DNA from: Alistipes sp.
GTDB taxonomy: Bacteria; Bacteroidota; Bacteroidia; Bacteroidales; Rikenellaceae
Length of the DNA: 64,000 nt
Assembly (NCBI GenBank): GCA_017398045.1
Contig: JAFQHI010000009.1
Location: 124,001 to 188,000, forward strand
Direction of reading: 5' to 3'
The translations under genes and the position numbers were made by a program. The notes under the pieces are model-generated. The model was given only the letters and a program-made list of their open reading frames with translations. It was not told the DNA's origin and did no database searches. This document shows positions 2,064 through 10,383 of this stretch, in pieces (position 1 is the stretch's first letter; every line of letters starts with the position of its first letter).

Positions 2064-2468
2064 TCATCCATCGACATACAGTTCCCAACCGCGCTCAATG
2101 GCTTGAAAATCGGCTTTTGTGCCGTTTTCGACCTCCGAGATGGCCGCTACGAGGGGTATCATCTGCCCCTTCAGGCGGATATCCAACACCTCGTCGGGCG
2201 CAAAACCCGTGCGGTCGCTGACGGCACGGATATAGGCCTCGGTATGGTTCTCCGTGGGTGGGGCCCAACGCGAAATCATCTCACGGATGGTCCGCAAACC
2301 ATATTTTTGCCGGTAGGTGCGGAGCGTAACGAAGATGGCGCGGTAGCCCCATTCAAGGCTCTCGAACTGTTTGAAAGCCGCATCGCGCGAGGGGCGCACC
2401 TCGCCCCGATAACGACTCGCCGAGCGGCGGATATTGCCCGGGTTGCAATTCGACAAACCCCTACTCAT
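2064..2468 (-). CDS. Phage endolysin-like protein ("structural protein P5" type)
   Basis: This 134-residue protein starts with MSRGLSNCNPGNIR, and the NPGNIR motif with later FKQFESLEWGYRA is typical of the Bacteroidales phage proteins annotated as P5-like peptidoglycan hydrolases. I chose the start at 2468 because upstream in-frame sequence lies inside the holin gene and is not family-like. The ATG overlaps the holin stop codon (ATGAGTAG), implying translational coupling. It is the last gene of the minus-strand island and probably cleaves peptidoglycan for lysis or entry. The hydrolase role is family-based. Confidence 0.75.
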   Translation of the reverse strand: MSRGLSNCNPGNIRRSASRYRGEVRPSRDAAFKQFESLEWGYRAIFVTLRTYRQKYGLRTIREMISRWAPPTENHTEAYIRAVSDRTGFAPDEVLDIRLKGQMIPLVAAISEVENGTKADFQAIERGWELYVDG

Positions 2469-2886
2469 CGCCCACCTCCTTCTCCAGCCGTCGATGCACA
2501 TAGCGACGCAGCCACTCGAAGAGGGGCGCATCCGAAAGCTGGGCGGCATTTTCGAGGAACGACCACAGCTCCACACCGCAGATAAATCCGGCAAAGAGCC
2601 TTGCCAACTTCAGATTGAGGAAATCGAGGATGCAGCTGTCGATGAGCCAGGCCATGGCGAGTGCCACCACGACCAATGCCGCCTTGCGAATCGTGCGCCA
2701 CGCCTTGGCACTCTCGAAATACCACGTCCGCTGCTCCTTGCCGGCCTGCTTTCTGTCGGCCATCACGCCCGACAGGAAATCGATGGCAATGAAGCACATC
2801 GAGCAAAGAATCATCGGAGCGGCAGGGGCAAACAGCCCGATGAGCGAGAGCATCAGCCCGCTAAAAAGTTTGTACAAAGCCTCCAT
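2461..2886 (-). CDS. Phage holin family protein
   Basis: The 141-residue product has three or four hydrophobic segments (residues about 8-40, 67-85 and 92-110) and ends in a charged helix (LRRYVHRRLEKEVGDE). Size, topology and position directly before the lysin gene match the holins of Bacteroidales prophages. Its 5' end overlaps the upstream gene by 26 bases. If functional it would make holes in the inner membrane to release the lysin. The pairing with the lysin is the main support for the call. Confidence 0.75.
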   Translation of the reverse strand: MEALYKLFSGLMLSLIGLFAPAAPMILCSMCFIAIDFLSGVMADRKQAGKEQRTWYFESAKAWRTIRKAALVVVALAMAWLIDSCILDFLNLKLARLFAGFICGVELWSFLENAAQLSDAPLFEWLRRYVHRRLEKEVGDE

Positions 2887-3334
2887 GGGTCATGCAGCGA
2901 TTTAAGATGTTGTTTTTCGGGTCGTATGCTGTAAACTCCTCCGCGTGCTGTTCCAGGTAGTCGGTCGCACGTCGCAGGAGGGTCATCGCCTCCTGCTTCA
3001 AGGCTTTTCGCTCCCCTTCGAGCGTTGCGGCATCGAGGAGCGAGGTGTTGGATGGGTCGGGACGAAACAGCCCCATCGGGGAGCAGAACGAAAGCAGACG
3101 AGGCAGCAGCAGATAGCGGGTCAAGAGTGCCACCGCATCGGCTAAATAGTCCTCAATGAAGGAGTTATCGCCGCCCGTCAAAAGGCGTGCATACAACTCC
3201 TCGCCCAGCACGGGACGAATATAGCGGCTCTCAACGGTCAGGATATCGGCCTCCGTTACAGTATCGACCGGCAACCGTTCTCGGTTGCGAAATGCGCGGA
3301 GCAACACCTCGGAGGGTGGAATCAAGGTCTTCAT
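2861..3334 (-). CDS. Phage head-completion/connector-like protein
   Basis: This 157-residue protein directly follows the portal gene with a 2-base gap. Features such as ILTVESRYIRPVLGEELYARL near the N-terminus and EFTAYDPKNNILNRCMTHGG near the C-terminus resemble a small, otherwise uncharacterised protein conserved in Bacteroidales phages beside portal and capsid genes (DUF6712-like, from memory). A head-tail connector or head-completion role is inferred from gene order and size only. Confidence 0.5.
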   Translation of the reverse strand: MKTLIPPSEVLLRAFRNRERLPVDTVTEADILTVESRYIRPVLGEELYARLLTGGDNSFIEDYLADAVALLTRYLLLPRLLSFCSPMGLFRPDPSNTSLLDAATLEGERKALKQEAMTLLRRATDYLEQHAEEFTAYDPKNNILNRCMTHGGFVQTF

Positions 3335-3336
3335 GG

Positions 3337-4560
3337 TTAATTGATACTTTTGATGTTATACTTCGTGATTTCGGAGAGGAACTGCTGCTGGCGTTCGTCC
3401 TCGGGGTCGTAGTCCAGACCGTCGGCCTTACGCGCCTCCCAGACCTTCATATAGATAGGTTTCGAGCGGGTGGGCGGGCGATTCACGATTTCGAGCGACG
3501 AAGCATCGACCCCCAGCACCGAGGCGATAAGCTCGCGAATCGGCTCCGTAAGGTCGGCCTGCTCGGAGAGAATCACCGTATTGAGGGCCACCTCATACTC
3601 TTGCAGGATGCGTTCCGAGCTGAAGCCCGAGGTGTAATCCAAGCCGCTGAGCGAGCGGAACCAGGAGTGCGCCACGACAATATCCGAGGTGGCCTGTTCG
3701 TGCAGCGACTGCCAATCGCCCTCGTTTCGGGATTCAATCGGGATGAAGCGCGAATGGTCATCCTCCGACCCTTCGCGGATGACAAACATCACCTGCCCGG
3801 GGTTACCGGCAAATTTCTCCTCTGCCAGACGGACGATGCGCTCGGCCTCGGCATCGTTATCGACCGACGAGTCGAGCATCATCACCCCCGAGAGCTGGAA
3901 CGAATTGTCGAGGCGGGCAATATTCCAACGGTCGGTCTTGTAGGCGATGGCCGAGACGTTCATACCGGCAATGTAGGCCGGCACGCCGTAGTGACGATAC
4001 GTCGGCTCGTAATCCTTGTAGTGAATCATCGTGCGCAGGGTACCATCGGCCTGCTCTTCGTAGCGGGGGTAGAGCGGCAGGGAGCGTGCCTCCTTTTCGT
4101 GAAAATTGCTCCAATCGGGGTGGAGCAGAATATGCTCCGAATCGCGTGCCACACGACACCGCGAAGCATCCTGATGGTAGAGCGAGAGGAAGGTGTGGGC
4201 GGGGTCGGTCACCACCTCCAGGAAGGCGTTACCGAACAAGGCTTTGTCGAAGGCCAGGCGATGCAGGATGCTACGCAGACTCTCCCCCTCGCCATTGGCC
4301 GAGCGGATAAAATCGAGCAGGAGCGGTTGCTGCTCGTCGCACGTAAAACCCTTACCGGCAATGTAGTCGGCCTTGTCGTTGATGATGCGGCGATGGGTGG
4401 TCGAACGGCGTGCCATAAGTGCCAGGGCTACAGGCAACAGGTTATCGTCGCCCCATCGCCAAAAGTGGTCGTTATGCACCTTGGCCGCCCCCAGGAAGTA
4501 GGGGTCCACGCGATTTTCCACCGCCACCGCGCGTGTTTTGATAGCTTTGTTTTGGGACAT
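3337..4560 (-). CDS. Phage portal protein
   Basis: The 407-residue product resembles tailed-phage portal proteins. It has an N-terminal segment (NDHFWRWGDDNLLPVALALM) that I associate with Bacteroidota phage portals, a central mixed alpha/beta region, and a polar C-terminal helix (DPEDERQQQFLSEITKYN). Portals form the dodecameric ring at one capsid vertex through which DNA is packaged and to which the tail attaches. It lies downstream of the capsid gene in transcription order, whereas most phages place portal before protease and capsid. A 77-base gap holding a hairpin separates it from the capsid gene. Confidence 0.8.
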   Translation of the reverse strand: MSQNKAIKTRAVAVENRVDPYFLGAAKVHNDHFWRWGDDNLLPVALALMARRSTTHRRIINDKADYIAGKGFTCDEQQPLLLDFIRSANGEGESLRSILHRLAFDKALFGNAFLEVVTDPAHTFLSLYHQDASRCRVARDSEHILLHPDWSNFHEKEARSLPLYPRYEEQADGTLRTMIHYKDYEPTYRHYGVPAYIAGMNVSAIAYKTDRWNIARLDNSFQLSGVMMLDSSVDNDAEAERIVRLAEEKFAGNPGQVMFVIREGSEDDHSRFIPIESRNEGDWQSLHEQATSDIVVAHSWFRSLSGLDYTSGFSSERILQEYEVALNTVILSEQADLTEPIRELIASVLGVDASSLEIVNRPPTRSKPIYMKVWEARKADGLDYDPEDERQQQFLSEITKYNIKSIN

Positions 4561-4590
4561 ATCGGTTCGTTTTAGGGTGATTCAGGGGGC

Positions 4591-4619
4591 GTGTCCAACC
4601 CAAAAGTTGGACACACCCT
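4591..4619. other. Hairpin between capsid and portal genes
   Basis: GTGTCCAAC and GTTGGACAC form a 9-base-pair stem with loop CCAAAA, extendable by flanking G/C pairs. There is no T-run on either strand, so it is not a standard intrinsic terminator. It could be an attenuation or RNA-processing point that sets capsid above portal expression in the minus-strand transcript (inference). It carries the GTTGGACA arm found in three terminators of this window. Confidence 0.6.
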
Positions 4620-4637
4620 ATGTGGTCGGACGTAAGC

Positions 4638-5615
4638 CTACGCACGGTAGGCATAAACGAGCATCTCCTCGTCCAGAATCTCGCAACCGGCCATAAAGAC
4701 GGCACGCTGGCGATTCTCCATCTCGTCGGGGTTGTACCACATACGCACCTCGTTGCCGGGCATATCGGCCGTATTCACGGCCATCACCAGGTTGCGACGG
4801 TCGGTTAAGAGGCAGAACGACTGGTGATGAGCCGTCTGGGGCAGGTAACGGCCCAACTGCACATCCACGACCGGAATACCGTGATAAGCCAACGCAGGGT
4901 GACCCTCGACGGTGGTGCGGAACGAGCTATCTACCCCCATCTTGTCGAGGTAACGCTCATACTGGTAGTAGATGTCCGAGGTGCAGAAGAGGACCAGCTG
5001 ACCCTCCGGACGCAGCGACTGCATACGCTGGTCACCGGCCTTCCACAGCTTGTCGAACAGCTCGACCACCGCCTCCGGCTCCTCCATCTCGGCTGCCGTG
5101 TAGGTCTGGTAGTTAATCATATCGTCCTCGACACCACCCTTGATGGAGGTAAGGAAGCCGTTGAAGGTGTTGAAGCCCGACGACTGTGCCGTGTCGCCCA
5201 ACCACATCGTGACGCGCAAATCCTCGGCAATGTGCTGCTTGAACAGCTCCGTCTCGGCCTGCTCGAGAATCGTCCCCGTGAGGTCCTGCATATTGACATC
5301 CGCGCGGGCCGAAATCTGCTCATAGACGAGCGAGAAGTAGTCGGCGGCCGAGAAACCGATTTCGGCCTTCACGCGCTCCATCGGAATCTGCTTCTGGTAC
5401 TTCACGGCAGGTGCGCCACCCGTCCAGCCCTTCGAGGTGAACTTCTTCAGCAGGTTCTGGTTGGCATCCCAAAGCTGCACGATGGTCGGAACGGGCATAT
5501 TGTAAAGGACGCGCACGCCCAACTCCTGTGCGCCCGGACCGGTGAGAATGGGGCGGAAGAAAATCGACTCAACGTCGTTACCGGTGTACTGCTTGGCGGT
5601 TTCAATGTAATTCAT
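4638..5615 (-). CDS. Phage major capsid protein (HK97-fold type)
   Basis: This 325-residue protein follows the protease-scaffold gene, the normal position for a major capsid protein. The sequence has the mixed alpha/beta character of HK97-fold proteins: GWTGGAPAVKYQKQIPMERV near residue 63, a long central helix region, and a C-terminal strand with NRQRAVFMAGCEILDEEMLV. It would assemble the icosahedral shell. The N-terminus has no obvious cleavable delta domain; a scaffold role may instead be supplied by the tail of the adjacent protease. A structural comparison would settle the fold. Confidence 0.7.
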   Translation of the reverse strand: MNYIETAKQYTGNDVESIFFRPILTGPGAQELGVRVLYNMPVPTIVQLWDANQNLLKKFTSKGWTGGAPAVKYQKQIPMERVKAEIGFSAADYFSLVYEQISARADVNMQDLTGTILEQAETELFKQHIAEDLRVTMWLGDTAQSSGFNTFNGFLTSIKGGVEDDMINYQTYTAAEMEEPEAVVELFDKLWKAGDQRMQSLRPEGQLVLFCTSDIYYQYERYLDKMGVDSSFRTTVEGHPALAYHGIPVVDVQLGRYLPQTAHHQSFCLLTDRRNLVMAVNTADMPGNEVRMWYNPDEMENRQRAVFMAGCEILDEEMLVYAYRA

Positions 5616-5676
5616 AGTAAATCTGATTTTTAAGGTTAAAATGGATTAGAAAAAGGGGTTAAGTGGTTGAAAAAGG

Positions 5677-6543
5677 TTAGTAGCGACGGAACGCCTTGGC
5701 GTCGCGGGCATAGGCCGCTTCGTTGGCCGAGAGGTTTCTATCCCCCATCGAGGGGTCCTCCACGGGGCTTACATCGGTGGGCTTGACGCTGCGCTGGCCC
5801 TCGAGGAGCAGGGTCGAGGCGCGACGTTGCAGCTCGGCCGAGTCGGCATGAAGGATGTTGCGGTCTTCGGGCAGCGGCTCTTCGCGCTTCAGCCCGATGG
5901 CACGCGCCAACCGCTCAAGGCCGGAGGCGATGTTCTCCGTCAGGGTCGGGGTCTCTACTCCCTGGCCGATGATGCGGTCGGCCAGGCCGGCCTCAAGCAC
6001 CTCCTCGGGGCGCAACCAGCGACCATCGCCACCATTCTCGGCCATCAGGCTTTCGAACCGCTCTTTGGGCTGACCGGAACGCTCGGCATAGAGCGAGGCG
6101 AGGCGGTCATCCGTCACGCGCAGCAGGTCGAGTTGCGAGGCGAGGTCATCGGCATTGCCCTCGGTGGAGCAGGTGGCACGGTGAATCAGGTAGAGGGCAT
6201 TGGCCGAGAGTTCGCGGCACCCCTCGGAGGCGGCTTGGGCGATGATGGTGGCAGCCGAGGCGGTGTAGCCATAGCAACGGGTTGTCACACGGCTCTTAAG
6301 CTGACGCAGGGCATCGTGAATGAGCAGGGCATCGTTCACATCGCCACCCGTCGAGCGAATCGTTACAACCACCTCCTCGGCGTCGATGGCTGCGATGCGT
6401 GCCACCGCCTCGCGGAAACGCTCATAGGTCGCCACCCGCGAATCGGGGTCGTCGAACTGCCACTCCTCGGGAACGCCGATGGTACCCTCGATTTCGATGA
6501 GACAGTGTTCGGCTTCGTTTTTAATCTGGATGTTGGTTTTCAT
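5677..6543 (-). CDS. ClpP-type prohead protease with C-terminal scaffold-like extension
   Basis: Residues about 1-200 form a ClpP-like serine protease: STGGDV at 64-69 (oxyanion loop), the nucleophile Ser96 in YTASAAT, and His121 in LYLIHRA. Residues about 205-288 are polar and rich in Glu, Arg and Ala, like the scaffolding extension fused to many phage ClpP/S49 prohead proteases. It lies 61 bases upstream of the capsid gene. The likely job is to process or chaperone capsid assembly. Apparent conservation of the catalytic Ser and His argues that the protein is under selection rather than decaying. Confidence 0.8.
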   Translation of the reverse strand: MKTNIQIKNEAEHCLIEIEGTIGVPEEWQFDDPDSRVATYERFREAVARIAAIDAEEVVVTIRSTGGDVNDALLIHDALRQLKSRVTTRCYGYTASAATIIAQAASEGCRELSANALYLIHRATCSTEGNADDLASQLDLLRVTDDRLASLYAERSGQPKERFESLMAENGGDGRWLRPEEVLEAGLADRIIGQGVETPTLTENIASGLERLARAIGLKREEPLPEDRNILHADSAELQRRASTLLLEGQRSVKPTDVSPVEDPSMGDRNLSANEAAYARDAKAFRRY

Positions 6544-6560
6544 TCGGTTGGGAAAAAAGG

Positions 6561-6827
6561 TTAAAGGGGTTTGTGTTTATAGTAGATGTTTCGCGCCTTT
6601 TCGAAGGAGCAACAAAAGCGGTCGGCAGCCCAAAGAAAGGCATCGGTGCGGATGGCTCCGGAGCGTATCGAACGCTCGATATCGCGTCGAATGGCCAACT
6701 CCTCGCACCCTTTGTGGTTAATCAGCCCCAGGCGATTGAGTTCTTCGAAGAGGGCGCGCGAACATCCTTTCGGCAGGAGAGGGGTCAGCTCATCCAGCAA
6801 TTCGCGCTCTAAACGGGTGTTTTTCAT
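6561..6827 (-). CDS. Small phage-island protein, helix-turn-helix-like
   Basis: The 88-residue product is helical and basic. Residues about 45-85 (RDIERSIRSGAIRTDAFLWA, then FEKARNIYYKHKPL) have the spacing of a small helix-turn-helix seen in uncharacterised Bacteroidales phage proteins. It sits between the tail-tip gene (4-base overlap, ATGA type) and the protease gene. A DNA-binding or small-terminase-like role is conceivable, but no specific function can be assigned. Confidence 0.5.
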   Translation of the reverse strand: MKNTRLERELLDELTPLLPKGCSRALFEELNRLGLINHKGCEELAIRRDIERSIRSGAIRTDAFLWAADRFCCSFEKARNIYYKHKPL

Positions 6828-9184
6828 CTATCAAGGCGGAAGAAGGTGCAACGTACTTTACCACTGTCGTGTACGCCTCGCTCGATGGCGTGCAGACGAC
6901 CTACAAATTCGCCATGCGAGGTGCGCAGGCGGAAGCGGGAGCGGAGCGTAGCACCCTCCCCTTCGGGGCGCAACAGACTCTCCAAATCGTGGGGCAAAAG
7001 GCGCAGGGTCAACTCCACCAACCCGCCCTCGGCTTCACAGCGCAGCTCATGGTCGTAGTAGCTATGCAGCCCCTTCACCCCGTCGCGCGACTCGAAGCAG
7101 AGCGTGCAGCCCGGCTCCTCACCCTCTGCGGGGAGGTGGAAGACGGCCAGCGGATAGTAATTCGCGTGGGCCGGACTCCCCCACCGCTCCCCCTCGGGCA
7201 GGGGCTGCAAACCACGATAGGAGACAATGCGCGGTGTGAAATTCGTGCCGTTCGCATCCGTCGAGTCTCGGTCACCGACCTGCAACAGACGGGCCGAGGG
7301 GGCATTCAGGTAGTGACCCACACTGCTCAACGTAGGATGAAACAGCGGGTTGCGGCGCACCTGTTCGCCCATCAGCGCGGCCTGGCTCTCCACTTCGGTA
7401 CTCCAGGCTCCGAAGCGGCTCCCCTCCTCGCGTTCGAGACGCGCCACCGCTCCATCGCTCACGCCATAGGCCAGCGTGCGCACTTCGTGGAGATCGCCCG
7501 AGAGGTCAATCATCGTGGCCGGCTCCTCCTGCACCACGCGACTCCGCCAATCCTCGACCGGACTCGTCAGATACATCACATCGGCCGGTTCGACCCGCAC
7601 CGTTTTCTGCTCCTCATCGGTCAAAAAGCGCAGGTTGAAGAGGTGCGCCACCGCCTCCAAGAGTTCGATTTGGCGGATTTGGTGCTGTGCCACGGTGGCA
7701 AAATCGATTTTCGAGCCGTAGCCCGGGGTCGAGAGGAAGAGGGGGCGAATCGAGCAGTGTTTGTCGAGCGTGAGGGTCATCCCCTCCTCGGCTCCGCCAA
7801 AGAAAATCGTGTCGAAATATTTCGGACTTTCGGGCGTAACGCGCTCGGCTGCCGAGTGCAGGCGCATCTCGACGGTCGTCTTACCCACCTCCCGGATGTA
7901 GCCGTCGTAGAGGGCCCAATCGAGTGTCGTGGTGACCCATTGCCCATCGACCTCCTGCTGAAGAATAGCCGTCGAAAGTGTGCCATCGACGGGCGATGTA
8001 ACGAGTGTCGTGCGACTCGAAAACACCCCCTCCGAGGCCGGCACAGGCACTCCGTCAACGAGCCAAACAAGGCGATAGCGCGTCCCTTCGGTGTGGTCAA
8101 AGACAATCAGCCGATAGATGTAGTTGTTATCCAACGCCTCACGTCTATCCACATAGCGATTCGTCAGATGCGAAGTGACCATGCCACACCCGGGGATGTA
8201 GAGCGTATCGAACCCCGTCAGTTCGTGGCGCGTAAGGATGCGATGCTCGGTCACATACTTCAGGTAATACTCAAACCCGACGCTCACCTCGCTCAACGGG
8301 CGGAAGAGGATGCGCCCGTTGTTCATCGTGAAGCAGTTACCGGCCGTGTACAGCTCCTGGTCCGGTTCGCCATCCTCGTCCGGCGTGGTCGGATTGGCCG
8401 ACTCGACCAGATTGCCCACCGTGCTGTAGAGAGCCGAAGGGTTGGCATAGACGCGCCCCGAGGAGTCGGCCGTAGCCGTGACCGATGTCAGACGACGCGC
8501 CAAAAAGCCCATGCGGTTCATCGCAGCCGTCGTATCACGCGAAGCGTAGGCACCGCTCATGTAGAGCTTTTGGAAGAATTCCGAGCCAAAGAAACGACTT
8601 TGGAGCGTGTAGCCCGACTCCCTGAAAATCTGCTCGATAAGGCTTTTGATGTGCAAGAAGGGGTGGTAGTCATCGACCGTCAGCAATCGCTCGGCCGTCA
8701 GCAGGTCCGAACCGCTCATCTGCTGCTCATAGCTGTCGCGGTGAATCGGGAAAAACTTCACGGGGCTGTCATTGGTCCAACTCTCGAGGATGGCCTGCGG
8801 TGTCAGGGTGGCCTGAAAGTCGAGGCCCAATTCGTTGAACATCTTGAGGGCGGCCTGATTCGCCCACGAGCTGCCACCCTCACGAATCAGCACCTCATAG
8901 CCCGCATCCGAGGCCCGCTCGAGCAGCACCTCGCCCTGCATCAACACAGCCCCATCCGCCTCGAGGCGTGCCGTGTGGCGGTCGGCATTGAATCGACGCG
9001 CCGTTTCGGGGTCACGGGCGCATCCGAAGAGGTCATCATTGCGACGCGAGGCGGGCAGCTTTAGGCGCAACTTTCGCCCCTCGCGGTGGGCCGAAACTTC
9101 ACCCAGACGGCTCAAATCGAGCTTCGGGAGTGTAATCTTCGAAGTGGCTAAATCACAGTACGTTTGGTCGATAAAGAGTCTCAT
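6824..9184 (-). CDS. Large tail-tip/baseplate-hub-like phage protein
   Basis: I place the start at 9184, where the ATG overlaps the upstream stop codon (TAATG), giving 786 residues. The N-terminal layout (LRLKLPASRRNDDLFG, then RFNADRHTARLEADG and VLMQGEVLLERASD) matches a large protein common in Bacteroidales prophages, in which a short beta domain is followed by an extended hub or adsorption region. The C-terminus (ATLRSRFRLRTSHGEFVGRL) is beta-rich. A role at the tail tip or in receptor contact is inferred from that resemblance. A gene of this size with coherent protein-like composition is not what a decaying prophage would show. Confidence 0.55.
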   Translation of the reverse strand: MRLFIDQTYCDLATSKITLPKLDLSRLGEVSAHREGRKLRLKLPASRRNDDLFGCARDPETARRFNADRHTARLEADGAVLMQGEVLLERASDAGYEVLIREGGSSWANQAALKMFNELGLDFQATLTPQAILESWTNDSPVKFFPIHRDSYEQQMSGSDLLTAERLLTVDDYHPFLHIKSLIEQIFRESGYTLQSRFFGSEFFQKLYMSGAYASRDTTAAMNRMGFLARRLTSVTATADSSGRVYANPSALYSTVGNLVESANPTTPDEDGEPDQELYTAGNCFTMNNGRILFRPLSEVSVGFEYYLKYVTEHRILTRHELTGFDTLYIPGCGMVTSHLTNRYVDRREALDNNYIYRLIVFDHTEGTRYRLVWLVDGVPVPASEGVFSSRTTLVTSPVDGTLSTAILQQEVDGQWVTTTLDWALYDGYIREVGKTTVEMRLHSAAERVTPESPKYFDTIFFGGAEEGMTLTLDKHCSIRPLFLSTPGYGSKIDFATVAQHQIRQIELLEAVAHLFNLRFLTDEEQKTVRVEPADVMYLTSPVEDWRSRVVQEEPATMIDLSGDLHEVRTLAYGVSDGAVARLEREEGSRFGAWSTEVESQAALMGEQVRRNPLFHPTLSSVGHYLNAPSARLLQVGDRDSTDANGTNFTPRIVSYRGLQPLPEGERWGSPAHANYYPLAVFHLPAEGEEPGCTLCFESRDGVKGLHSYYDHELRCEAEGGLVELTLRLLPHDLESLLRPEGEGATLRSRFRLRTSHGEFVGRLHAIERGVHDSGKVRCTFFRLDR

Positions 9185-10137
9185 TACATACCATTTTTTC
9201 GGGTGGGACAAAGGGTCAGCTCAAAGCAGGTGAACAACCCATCACACAAAATCTCCAGCTCGTCGTTCACCACCTCCATCGGCTCATAGACCCCGTCGCA
9301 AAGCATCCAGACCTGCTCGGCCGACAACAGCTCCTTCAGACCCTGCATCATCTCCTCGCTCTCGAGGGCCGATTGCAGGACGATGCACGCACGGGATGCA
9401 CAACGCACCACCTCGCTACCCGTATCGCTGTCGATGCGCTCCTTTTCAACGGTGAGGCGTTTTGCCTTCACAAGGGGGAAGGTGTACTGCTCAAGCGAGC
9501 CACGCGAGGAGTGCCAGGCAACACGGCAACCACCTTCAAGGGGGTGGGTCAGGGTGTAGCCGACTACGGCCGTGGGTGAACCATCGACCACGATGCGGGT
9601 GGCATCGGGATAATCGGCAGCATCGAGGCGGAAGCGGAAGAGGCCCGTACCCGGAATGATGAACGAGGAGGTGGAGATTGTTCCATCGCGATGGGTGACA
9701 ACGAGTTGCAACGGTTGGGGCGGGCCGGAGAGGAAGGTCAGTTCATCCATCTCGTTTGCGGCCAGCAGTCGCTCGGTGGGGAGGGTGGTCAATAGGGCGG
9801 TCGGCTCCTCGTTATCCTGCGCCGGACGATAGATGATTGTGGGCGAGGTGATGCGTTCACTCGCGCTCACCGCCACGAGGGTCAGCATCAGCTGGCGGTC
9901 CGAGCCAATCTCGACGGCACTGCCCGCGAGGGGAATTTTGAACCGAACACGCCGTGCCAGGTAGGGGGCCACATCGAAGGTGACGGAGCTTTGATTGACA
10001 AATCGTTTGATGCCGATAATGCCGTGCGAAGAGAGGTGTAACTGCACCTCCATCACGGGGTCGGTAATCTCGGTGATGGTACACCACATCGGCTGCCCGG
10101 TGGGGGCATAGGAGGGGGGAAGGGATTCAAAATGCAT
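9184..10137 (-). CDS. Tail-associated phage protein, first gene of the island
   Basis: The frame is open further upstream, but those residues are hydrophobic and low in complexity, so I take the ATG at 10137 (MHFESLPPSYAPTGQPMWC), giving 317 residues. It is a beta-rich protein; the C-terminal pattern (CRVAWHSSRGSLEQYTFPLV, then KELLSAEQVWMLCDG) resembles a tail-associated protein paired with the hub-like gene in Bacteroidales prophages. It precedes that gene with a one-base stop/start overlap. The specific role is unknown. Confidence 0.5.
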   Translation of the reverse strand: MHFESLPPSYAPTGQPMWCTITEITDPVMEVQLHLSSHGIIGIKRFVNQSSVTFDVAPYLARRVRFKIPLAGSAVEIGSDRQLMLTLVAVSASERITSPTIIYRPAQDNEEPTALLTTLPTERLLAANEMDELTFLSGPPQPLQLVVTHRDGTISTSSFIIPGTGLFRFRLDAADYPDATRIVVDGSPTAVVGYTLTHPLEGGCRVAWHSSRGSLEQYTFPLVKAKRLTVEKERIDSDTGSEVVRCASRACIVLQSALESEEMMQGLKELLSAEQVWMLCDGVYEPMEVVNDELEILCDGLFTCFELTLCPTRKNGM

Positions 10138-10350: not shown

Positions 10351-10383
10351 CAAATATACAACGGCCGATACCCCCTTGTCAAG
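10351..10383 (-). promoter_or_regulatory. Promoter of the phage-structural island
   Basis: On the minus strand, a -7 box TATATTTG (complement of 10351-10358) lies 21 bases from a -33-like CTTG (complement of 10380-10383). This is a good match to the Bacteroidota consensus and points into the island. The predicted start near 10344 would leave a leader of about 200 bases before the first gene, containing two AAAGATGTCrATAA-like repeats. Confidence 0.6.

Follow-up and report, generated by a model that had tools for sequence, protein, structure and literature searches.

A phage-derived head, tail-tip and lysis island with a detached terminase gene in Alistipes and related Rikenellaceae, best read as gene-transfer-agent-like

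Phage capsid genes that stand in a bacterial chromosome without the other genes of a phage raise the question of what they are kept for. The question is posed here by a window of 64,000 nucleotides (the whole stretch of DNA that was analysed) from Alistipes sp., family Rikenellaceae, which contains an island of nine minus-strand genes whose junctions overlap or nearly so. An earlier note on this DNA had described these nine genes, as the gene calls confirm, and had proposed either a domesticated particle (gene-transfer-agent-like, a DNA-free shell or a lytic weapon) or a capsid-forming satellite that borrows a terminase and a tail.

The first two genes in the direction of transcription are ORF9 (9184-10137), a Dit-like tail-tip protein with two predicted Ig/FN3-like domains and a baseplate-like C-terminal domain, and ORF8 (6824-9184), with a predicted baseplate-hub (Mu gp44/VgrG-like) fold and an inserted knob domain at residues 219-487; the predicted folds back the tail-tip identity already proposed for both. 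They are followed by a small protein, ORF7 (6561-6827), which has a homologue at the equivalent place in a phage contig discussed below (E 1.2e-4). Searches of PHROGs, Pfam and NCBIfam at E 0.1 gave no family for ORF7, ORF8 or ORF9, and the rows listed by a fold search with ORF9 were mostly Ig-like domains of complement and receptor proteins, from which no function was inferred. The fourth gene codes for a ClpP-type head maturation protease (5677-6543; phrog_94 E 2.2e-36, PF00574 E 3.1e-27), whose catalytic residues are intact as first read, Ser96 being present in 78 of 80 alignment rows (two gaps) and His121 in 77 of 80. The major capsid protein (4638-5615) was assigned from position and conservation, together with a weak match to phrog_1623, "virion structural protein" (E 7e-9). 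A PDB sequence search with the capsid, ORF8 and ORF9 gave no convincing relative; the sole match of the capsid (E 0.076), a eukaryotic cleavage factor, was dismissed. The portal (3337-4560) is PBSX/HK97-like, matching phrog_11226 at E 1.2e-21 and the PBSX-type family TIGR01540 at E 1.2e-16, which lies under that family's cut-off. It is followed by a connector-like protein (2861-3334; DUF6712, PF20459, E 2.4e-7), a holin (2461-2886; PF05105 E 2.5e-12) and a lysin or virion-type transglycosylase-like protein (2064-2468; phrog_873 E 1.6e-46), which in profile matches also resembles parts of tape-measure and tail-transglycosylase families. The TTG at 2594, start of the long open frame of the lysin, is probably wrong, and the ATG at 2468 begins MSRGLSNCNPGNIR.

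As the earlier note had stated, family searches found no integrase, tape measure or tail tube within the nine genes. Replication families are likewise missing from the nine proteins and the identified flanking genes are host-like, so that the island does not unite integrase, replication genes and a complete tail in one unit as a functional temperate prophage does. A repeat search bore out the absence of att-like repeats around the island: of six families of direct repeats, the longest (27 nt) has both copies inside the portal gene. In the window the lysin is followed by a DUF3826 gene. The promoter-like site at 10353-10382 (minus strand, TTGACA-18-TATATT) is the best of 6 promoter-like matches, but shuffled sequence yields 5.7; its second box, TATATTTG, is compatible with TAnnTTTG, the Bacteroidetes promoter form. 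At the operon end, a strong terminator-like hairpin (minus strand, ~2004-2040; 15-bp stem, -27.7 kcal/mol, z -3.88) lacks a proper T-run and is absent from the list of the terminator scan.

The portal was found in 181 of 200 sampled genomes of the Rikenellaceae/Alistipes family (105 of the 109 good genomes; 17 of 22 genera), as a single match in 175 of the 181 and as two in 6; order-wide it occurred in 8 of 247 genomes, 3 of which belong to the family, the other five matching at E 2.5e-80 or weaker. Gene content and order were counted in 58 long-enough loci among the best 80 of 180 confirmed relatives, to which all counts out of 58 given here refer. ORF9, ORF8, protease, capsid, portal and connector are each present in 58/58, the lysin in 51, the holin in 48 and ORF7 in 35; gene order is identical in every one, and two genes, both coding for the protease, are split. 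The same host locus in relatives was to be checked according to the earlier note: in 43/58, the gene upstream of the block, in divergent orientation, is corA, whereas in other genera the block adjoins rnhB or a DHH-family gene. In those genera it is often accompanied by the gene family f19, and genus g9 has two further leading genes, of which the small one (~100 aa) showed no detectable relation to a 218-aa gene of the phage discussed below. Beyond the lysin, 30/58 loci have a comEC-like gene close to the island, on the same strand in 28; comEC is absent from the window. Its identity was supported in one example scanned (PF03772 E 1.6e-54), and the family calls for rnhB, DHH, f9, f14, DnaB and RecT also come from one example each. 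Internal stops were flagged in the portal of 9 of 17 mostly deep-branching genomes; six of the nine were rechecked (G005, G025 and G065 were left out), and in five a single open frame spans the complete portal profile, while the portal of G026 is truly split. The portal of G139, from the family sample of 200, likewise carries a stop flag.

The earlier statement that a terminase is missing is correct for the island itself, but not for the genome, where the proposed search for a terminase elsewhere turned up an intact large subunit (TerL) at a second locus. It is a full-length open frame of 469 aa on the minus strand (G000:C1:102877-104286, or L166:8878-10287; phrog_38 E 2.1e-89). PF03237 (Terminase_6N) matches 34 of 35 good genomes, with a single weak match in 33 and four in G087, which carries a second TerL copy at 46% identity and one unrelated match. 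Seventeen other family proteins are 53-88% identical to the TerL of the window genome, and a protein search with the latter reached 181 of the 200 family genomes. The Walker A and B motifs and the nuclease D/E/D residues are intact in every covering row of the alignment (20 or 21 of 21; a broken gene supplies one row, in which the N-terminal half is missing). In a table built by hand from the two search lists, incomplete genomes included, portal and TerL occur together in 175 of 200 genomes, portal only in 6, TerL only in 6 and neither in 13; both are absent from genera g2, g10, g12 and g22 (8 genomes). A DNA-free shell of the encapsulin type, one of the options first raised, does not fit a portal and a TerL that are each so widely present. 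A different candidate partner, the prophage TerL of the PF03354 family at ~33 kb of G000:C1 (L001; E 4.6e-34, with a recombinase-like ORF close by), was rejected, as only 6 of 35 genomes match PF03354 and the genes around it resemble those of an ordinary prophage. A small terminase (TerS) was not identified for Alistipes.

Upstream of TerL, a divergent repressor with XRE and S24 domains (PF00717 E 3.4e-13; phrog_4 E 1.6e-34) is present in 19 of 21 loci, the exceptions being G007 and the second copy of G087, and a small ORF of ~95 aa lies between the two genes in 17 of 21. The repressor marks the family only partially, since XRE/S24 matches are widespread in the order (some match in 74 of 148 genomes), suggesting a regulator of older origin, perhaps from a phage or from the host; with at least 44% identity over at least 150 covered residues, the matches listed comprised only G000, G019, G327, G219 and G252. 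An exact-match test for an operator common to the island and TerL promoters gave none in 8 genomes (own mean 9.0, cross mean 9.0). Some block and TerL promoters of genus g20 are preceded by AT-rich stretches resembling TTCAAATATT (L167, L168, L175, L159); they are a possible common operator, without support from that exact-match test.

Do the two loci belong together? Their genes were compared with that of the cysteinyl-tRNA synthetase (CysRS), taken as host reference, in trees of the 21 of 24 genomes that have all four genes, the broken TerL of G006 being represented by its better piece. Mantel r was 0.896 for portal and CysRS, 0.927 for TerL and CysRS and 0.892 for portal and TerL, with 13, 14 and 15 of 18 splits in common, respectively. 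The capsid tree tracks the host more loosely (r 0.39, 10 of 18 splits; genus g9 is not monophyletic). In Alistipes the loci are apart, TerL being found in 0/58 long island loci (best 80 of 180). In G037 and G059, TerL and the block share a strand and are separated by ~4 kb, and in G013 (genus g14) and G007 (genus g8) it is contiguous with the ClpP protease, capsid, portal and DUF6712 genes, which links the island and TerL loci. It could be argued that the capsid island and the orphan TerL were domesticated separately and have different roles: they occupy separate sites in Alistipes, and the nearest TerLs outside the family (44-47% identical) are in prophage-like regions where no island profile matched nearby. 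The contiguity in G013 and G007, the proximity in G037 and G059, the joint absence from four genera and the correlated trees speak against this, and we regard two unrelated domestications as decidedly improbable. As to the prophage-like regions of other Bacteroidales families (G253, G425, G298, G419; L231-L234, L236-L238, L240), their TerLs are 34-47% identical to the orphan TerL, and in G253 and G298 TerL is followed by long genes (1180 and 1285 aa) as large as those of tape measures.

Selection was estimated by the Nei-Gojobori method on 16 of 181 candidate pairs, each locus being used at most twice, plus the pairs of the window with L032 and L033; TerL was left out. This check, proposed in the earlier note, indicates purifying selection on all nine island genes, with median dN/dS from 0.10 to 0.30: portal 0.10, the most constrained, holin 0.17, capsid 0.18, protease 0.19, lysin 0.19, connector 0.24, ORF8 0.24, ORF7 0.29 and ORF9 0.30; the host neighbours gave 0.05 (corA), 0.16 (g13), 0.23 (f9) and 0.25 (comEC). 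An old prophage remnant, retained by chance and drifting to loss, would explain why ORF7 was not found in 23/58 long loci, the holin in 10 and the lysin in 7, and why copies are broken in genus g7, yet it is largely contradicted by selection and conservation: the medians are similar to those of comEC and f9, the order is kept throughout and retention is family-wide at two loci. We give it a very slight probability. The broken genes of genus g7 are the split portal of G026 (L141) and the DUF6712 connector and TerL of G006 (L140, L179); in this genus the genes look as if the system were undergoing loss. Evidence named at the outset as able to overturn domestication was a complete prophage of this type in closely related genomes; none was seen among the loci read.

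The ancestry of the island is illuminated by a viral contig of 37.6 kb (L244/G444, IMGVR_UViG_3300001596_000105), whose portal is 46% identical to that of the island. Its genes run in the order TerS (phrog_51 E 1.2e-28), TerL (phrog_979 E 4.7e-20), a 281-aa gene akin to a block-leading gene of genus g9 (E 6.7e-13), f19 (E 2.3e-5), ORF9 (similar in its C-terminal part, E 4e-7), ORF8 (E 2.8e-23), a tape measure of 1015 aa (phrog_3336 E 4.5e-13), ORF7, ClpP, capsid, X147, portal, holin (phrog_199 E 4.5e-9) and integrase (phrog_1 E 1.9e-19), and it also codes for DnaB (PF03796 E 4.6e-88) and RecT (PF03837 E 5.7e-45). Between the phage and the island, or the relatives of the island in other genera, gene order agrees all the way from the 281-aa gene and f19 to the portal. 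The phage differs in that TerS and TerL precede the structural genes, a tape measure stands between ORF8 and ORF7, and DnaB, RecT and integrase are present; in the window, the overlap of ORF8 and ORF7 falls exactly at the position of the phage tape measure. The gene order had been called unusual in the earlier note, an argument that falls with a free phage that has it too: a rearrangement was rejected, and the order with tail-tip before head genes can be taken as ancestral because the phage contig has the same one.

Other viral records are of several kinds. A compact contig of 14.8 kb (L118) carries an integrase (PF13102 E 5.1e-16), ClpP, capsid, a portal 52% identical to that of the island and DUF6712, and no tail tube or tape measure was recognised in it; similar compact head modules adjoin a TerL-looking gene in L129-L131. 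The L118 portal, searched against phage records, gave 110 matches, 103 of them from Streptomyces and at ~23% identity among the matches listed, which were set aside as distant portals only. With ORF8, the sole match among 50,697 phage records was one stool scaffold, and of six matches in viral contigs, L112, L113, L114, L116 and L241 are pieces of the island and L242 is apparently one as well. Island pieces filed as viruses in IMG/VR and GenBank comprise L112-L117, L241, L242, MT838736 and MT838805, with host neighbour genes in L241 and the last two.

Capsid-forming PICI satellites are compact islands with head genes and no tail tube, and the Alistipes island resembles them in these respects; the integrase-bearing L118 also shows that a compact relative exists among viral contigs. 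The island differs in showing no sign of mobility and in keeping tail-tip and lysis genes. It has no integrase, no flanking repeats and no plasmid record with its portal, its distribution is not patchy but usually a single copy in nearly every genome, its tree is host-like, corA is the same neighbour in 43/58 long loci, and the system has a conserved TerL of its own. A satellite depending on the tail or terminase of a helper is, on these grounds, very improbable, and this half of the first proposal is poorly supported; the other half, a domesticated particle, is strongly supported by conservation, host-like inheritance and purifying selection.

No tail tube was found for Alistipes, and no tape measure conserved in the family emerged from a profile search of 35 genomes, in five of which phrog_3336 matched weakly; tape-measure proteins diverge fast. 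Of a possible delivery device, the predicted tail-tip folds of ORF8 and ORF9 are visible. In the four genomes read from genera g8 and g14, the block is reduced to protease, capsid, portal and connector, and the profiles of ORF8, ORF9, holin and lysin were unmatched in the stretches read. These head-only clusters (G013, L137/L161; G007, L138/L165; G027, L139; G040, L151) have a DUF6712 protein extended to 327-382 aa; in G040, TerL was not within the 20 kb read. A domesticated particle could also serve without gene transfer, as a lytic weapon or other delivery device in which DNA packaging is a by-product. The presence of tail-tip genes with the capsid in 58/58 long loci and of lysis genes in most, with no conserved long-tail genes found, would agree with this. 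It is at odds with the portal being the most constrained gene and with the intact ATPase and nuclease residues of TerL; moreover, the most reduced versions keep TerL (not seen in the 20 kb read of G040), protease, capsid, portal and connector, and it is the tip and lysis profiles that are unmatched. Such a weapon is an unlikely explanation.

Gene content and trees show a head, tail-tip and lysis locus and, at a second locus, the packaging motor TerL, both co-inherited. As in a gene transfer agent (GTA), phage-derived head and packaging genes reside in host chromosomes with a functional-looking TerL and portal, and vertical inheritance goes with purifying selection, the congruence of the capsid being weak and dN/dS coming from island genes. 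Of the options first proposed, the GTA-like one is the best match, given the catalytically intact and co-inherited TerL at the second locus. The island probably encodes a domesticated phage particle that the bacterium maintains and that is most likely GTA-like, with its packaging gene at a separate locus and a tail tube undetected; the main uncertainty concerns function. Several results count against this reading: no tail tube, conserved tape measure or TerS was found for Alistipes, the capsid tree fits that of the host loosely, the exact-match test gave no common operator, genes are broken in genus g7, and the particle-borne DNA of a stool study described below came mostly from other families. 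The ancestor would have been a temperate tailed phage whose genes already stood in this order; it would have lost its integrase, replication and tape-measure genes, and its TerL would have become detached. In the proposed mechanism, stress or DNA damage would relieve the S24 repressor, which may control both loci; the operon would then produce a proteolytically matured capsid, into which TerL would pack host DNA through the portal; instead of a long tail, the head would receive a stub-like tip made of DUF6712, ORF9 and ORF8, which would close it. Opening the cell would be the task of holin and lysin, and delivery would proceed through the stub tip. ComEC is the protein of competence DNA import and aids DNA uptake in recipients of RcGTA, the agent of Rhodobacter capsulatus; a comEC beside the island, seen in some loci though not in the window, would suit the uptake of particle DNA.

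RcGTA resembles the Alistipes system in being derived from a phage and inherited vertically, with head, tail and lysis genes spread over several loci, TerL among the genes retained and no integrase. RcGTA has a full tail cluster and its TerL is inside the head-tail cluster, while the Alistipes system, in another phylum, has a TerL detached beside an S24 repressor and no tube or tape measure found. The genes of RcGTA occupy five loci, one of which is the head-tail cluster, according to the part of the source available (PMC7947584). FpGTA of Faecalibacterium, a gut commensal, is described in the available part of another report as having two operons with baseplate, holin and endolysin genes and no visible or identifiable tails, and its particles and their ~9-kb DNA were demonstrated (PMC12946183). 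The two-locus arrangement, baseplate and lysis genes, lack of an identifiable tail and gut host are shared with Alistipes; in FpGTA, however, the host is Gram-positive, TerL, portal and capsid are in one operon with baseplate and lysis genes in the other, and particles and DNA are established, whereas the Alistipes system is a matter of genes (PMC12946183, same part).

Stool data touch on the question of packaged DNA. MT838736 and MT838805, deposited in GenBank as "Bacteriophage sp." scaffolds from Mexican stool, hold island pieces with host flanks (f14 in one case; comEC, f9 and f15 in the other). They may come from a study of DNase-treated particles (PMC8361208), in whose available passages these accessions are not printed, and contamination is equally possible; scaffolds with island and host flanks are no proof of random host DNA in particles. 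In a stool study of three donors, the available part of which does not contain the word "Alistipes", total DNA had Rikenellaceae as one of its most abundant families, while particle-borne bacterial DNA was mostly from other families, the differences being without statistical significance (PMC12946183); this speaks against packaging by Alistipes particles.

A fuller picture can be offered with somewhat less than even confidence. The system may be an ancient, family-wide GTA of Bacteroidota, split between two loci and controlled by a repressor, in which tube and tape measure were lost and a tip of hub and Dit-like protein sits straight on the portal as its cap; it would share chromosomal DNA in animal guts, uptake being helped by ComEC near about half of the Alistipes-type loci, and sister genera would have head-only versions. 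No GTA or conserved capsid island of Bacteroidota, Rikenellaceae or Alistipes was found described in the literature searched, preprints and most subscription papers excepted, and if the reading is true, Bacteroidota would gain a GTA. With a full temperate phage contig, the island and its detached TerL, the head-only cluster and copies in decay all at hand, the successive steps of domestication can be tested. If the particles carry host DNA, a genus common in human and animal guts would have a built-in, vertically kept device for gene exchange, and one could ask directly why bacteria keep such devices and whether domestication is possible without a tail tube.
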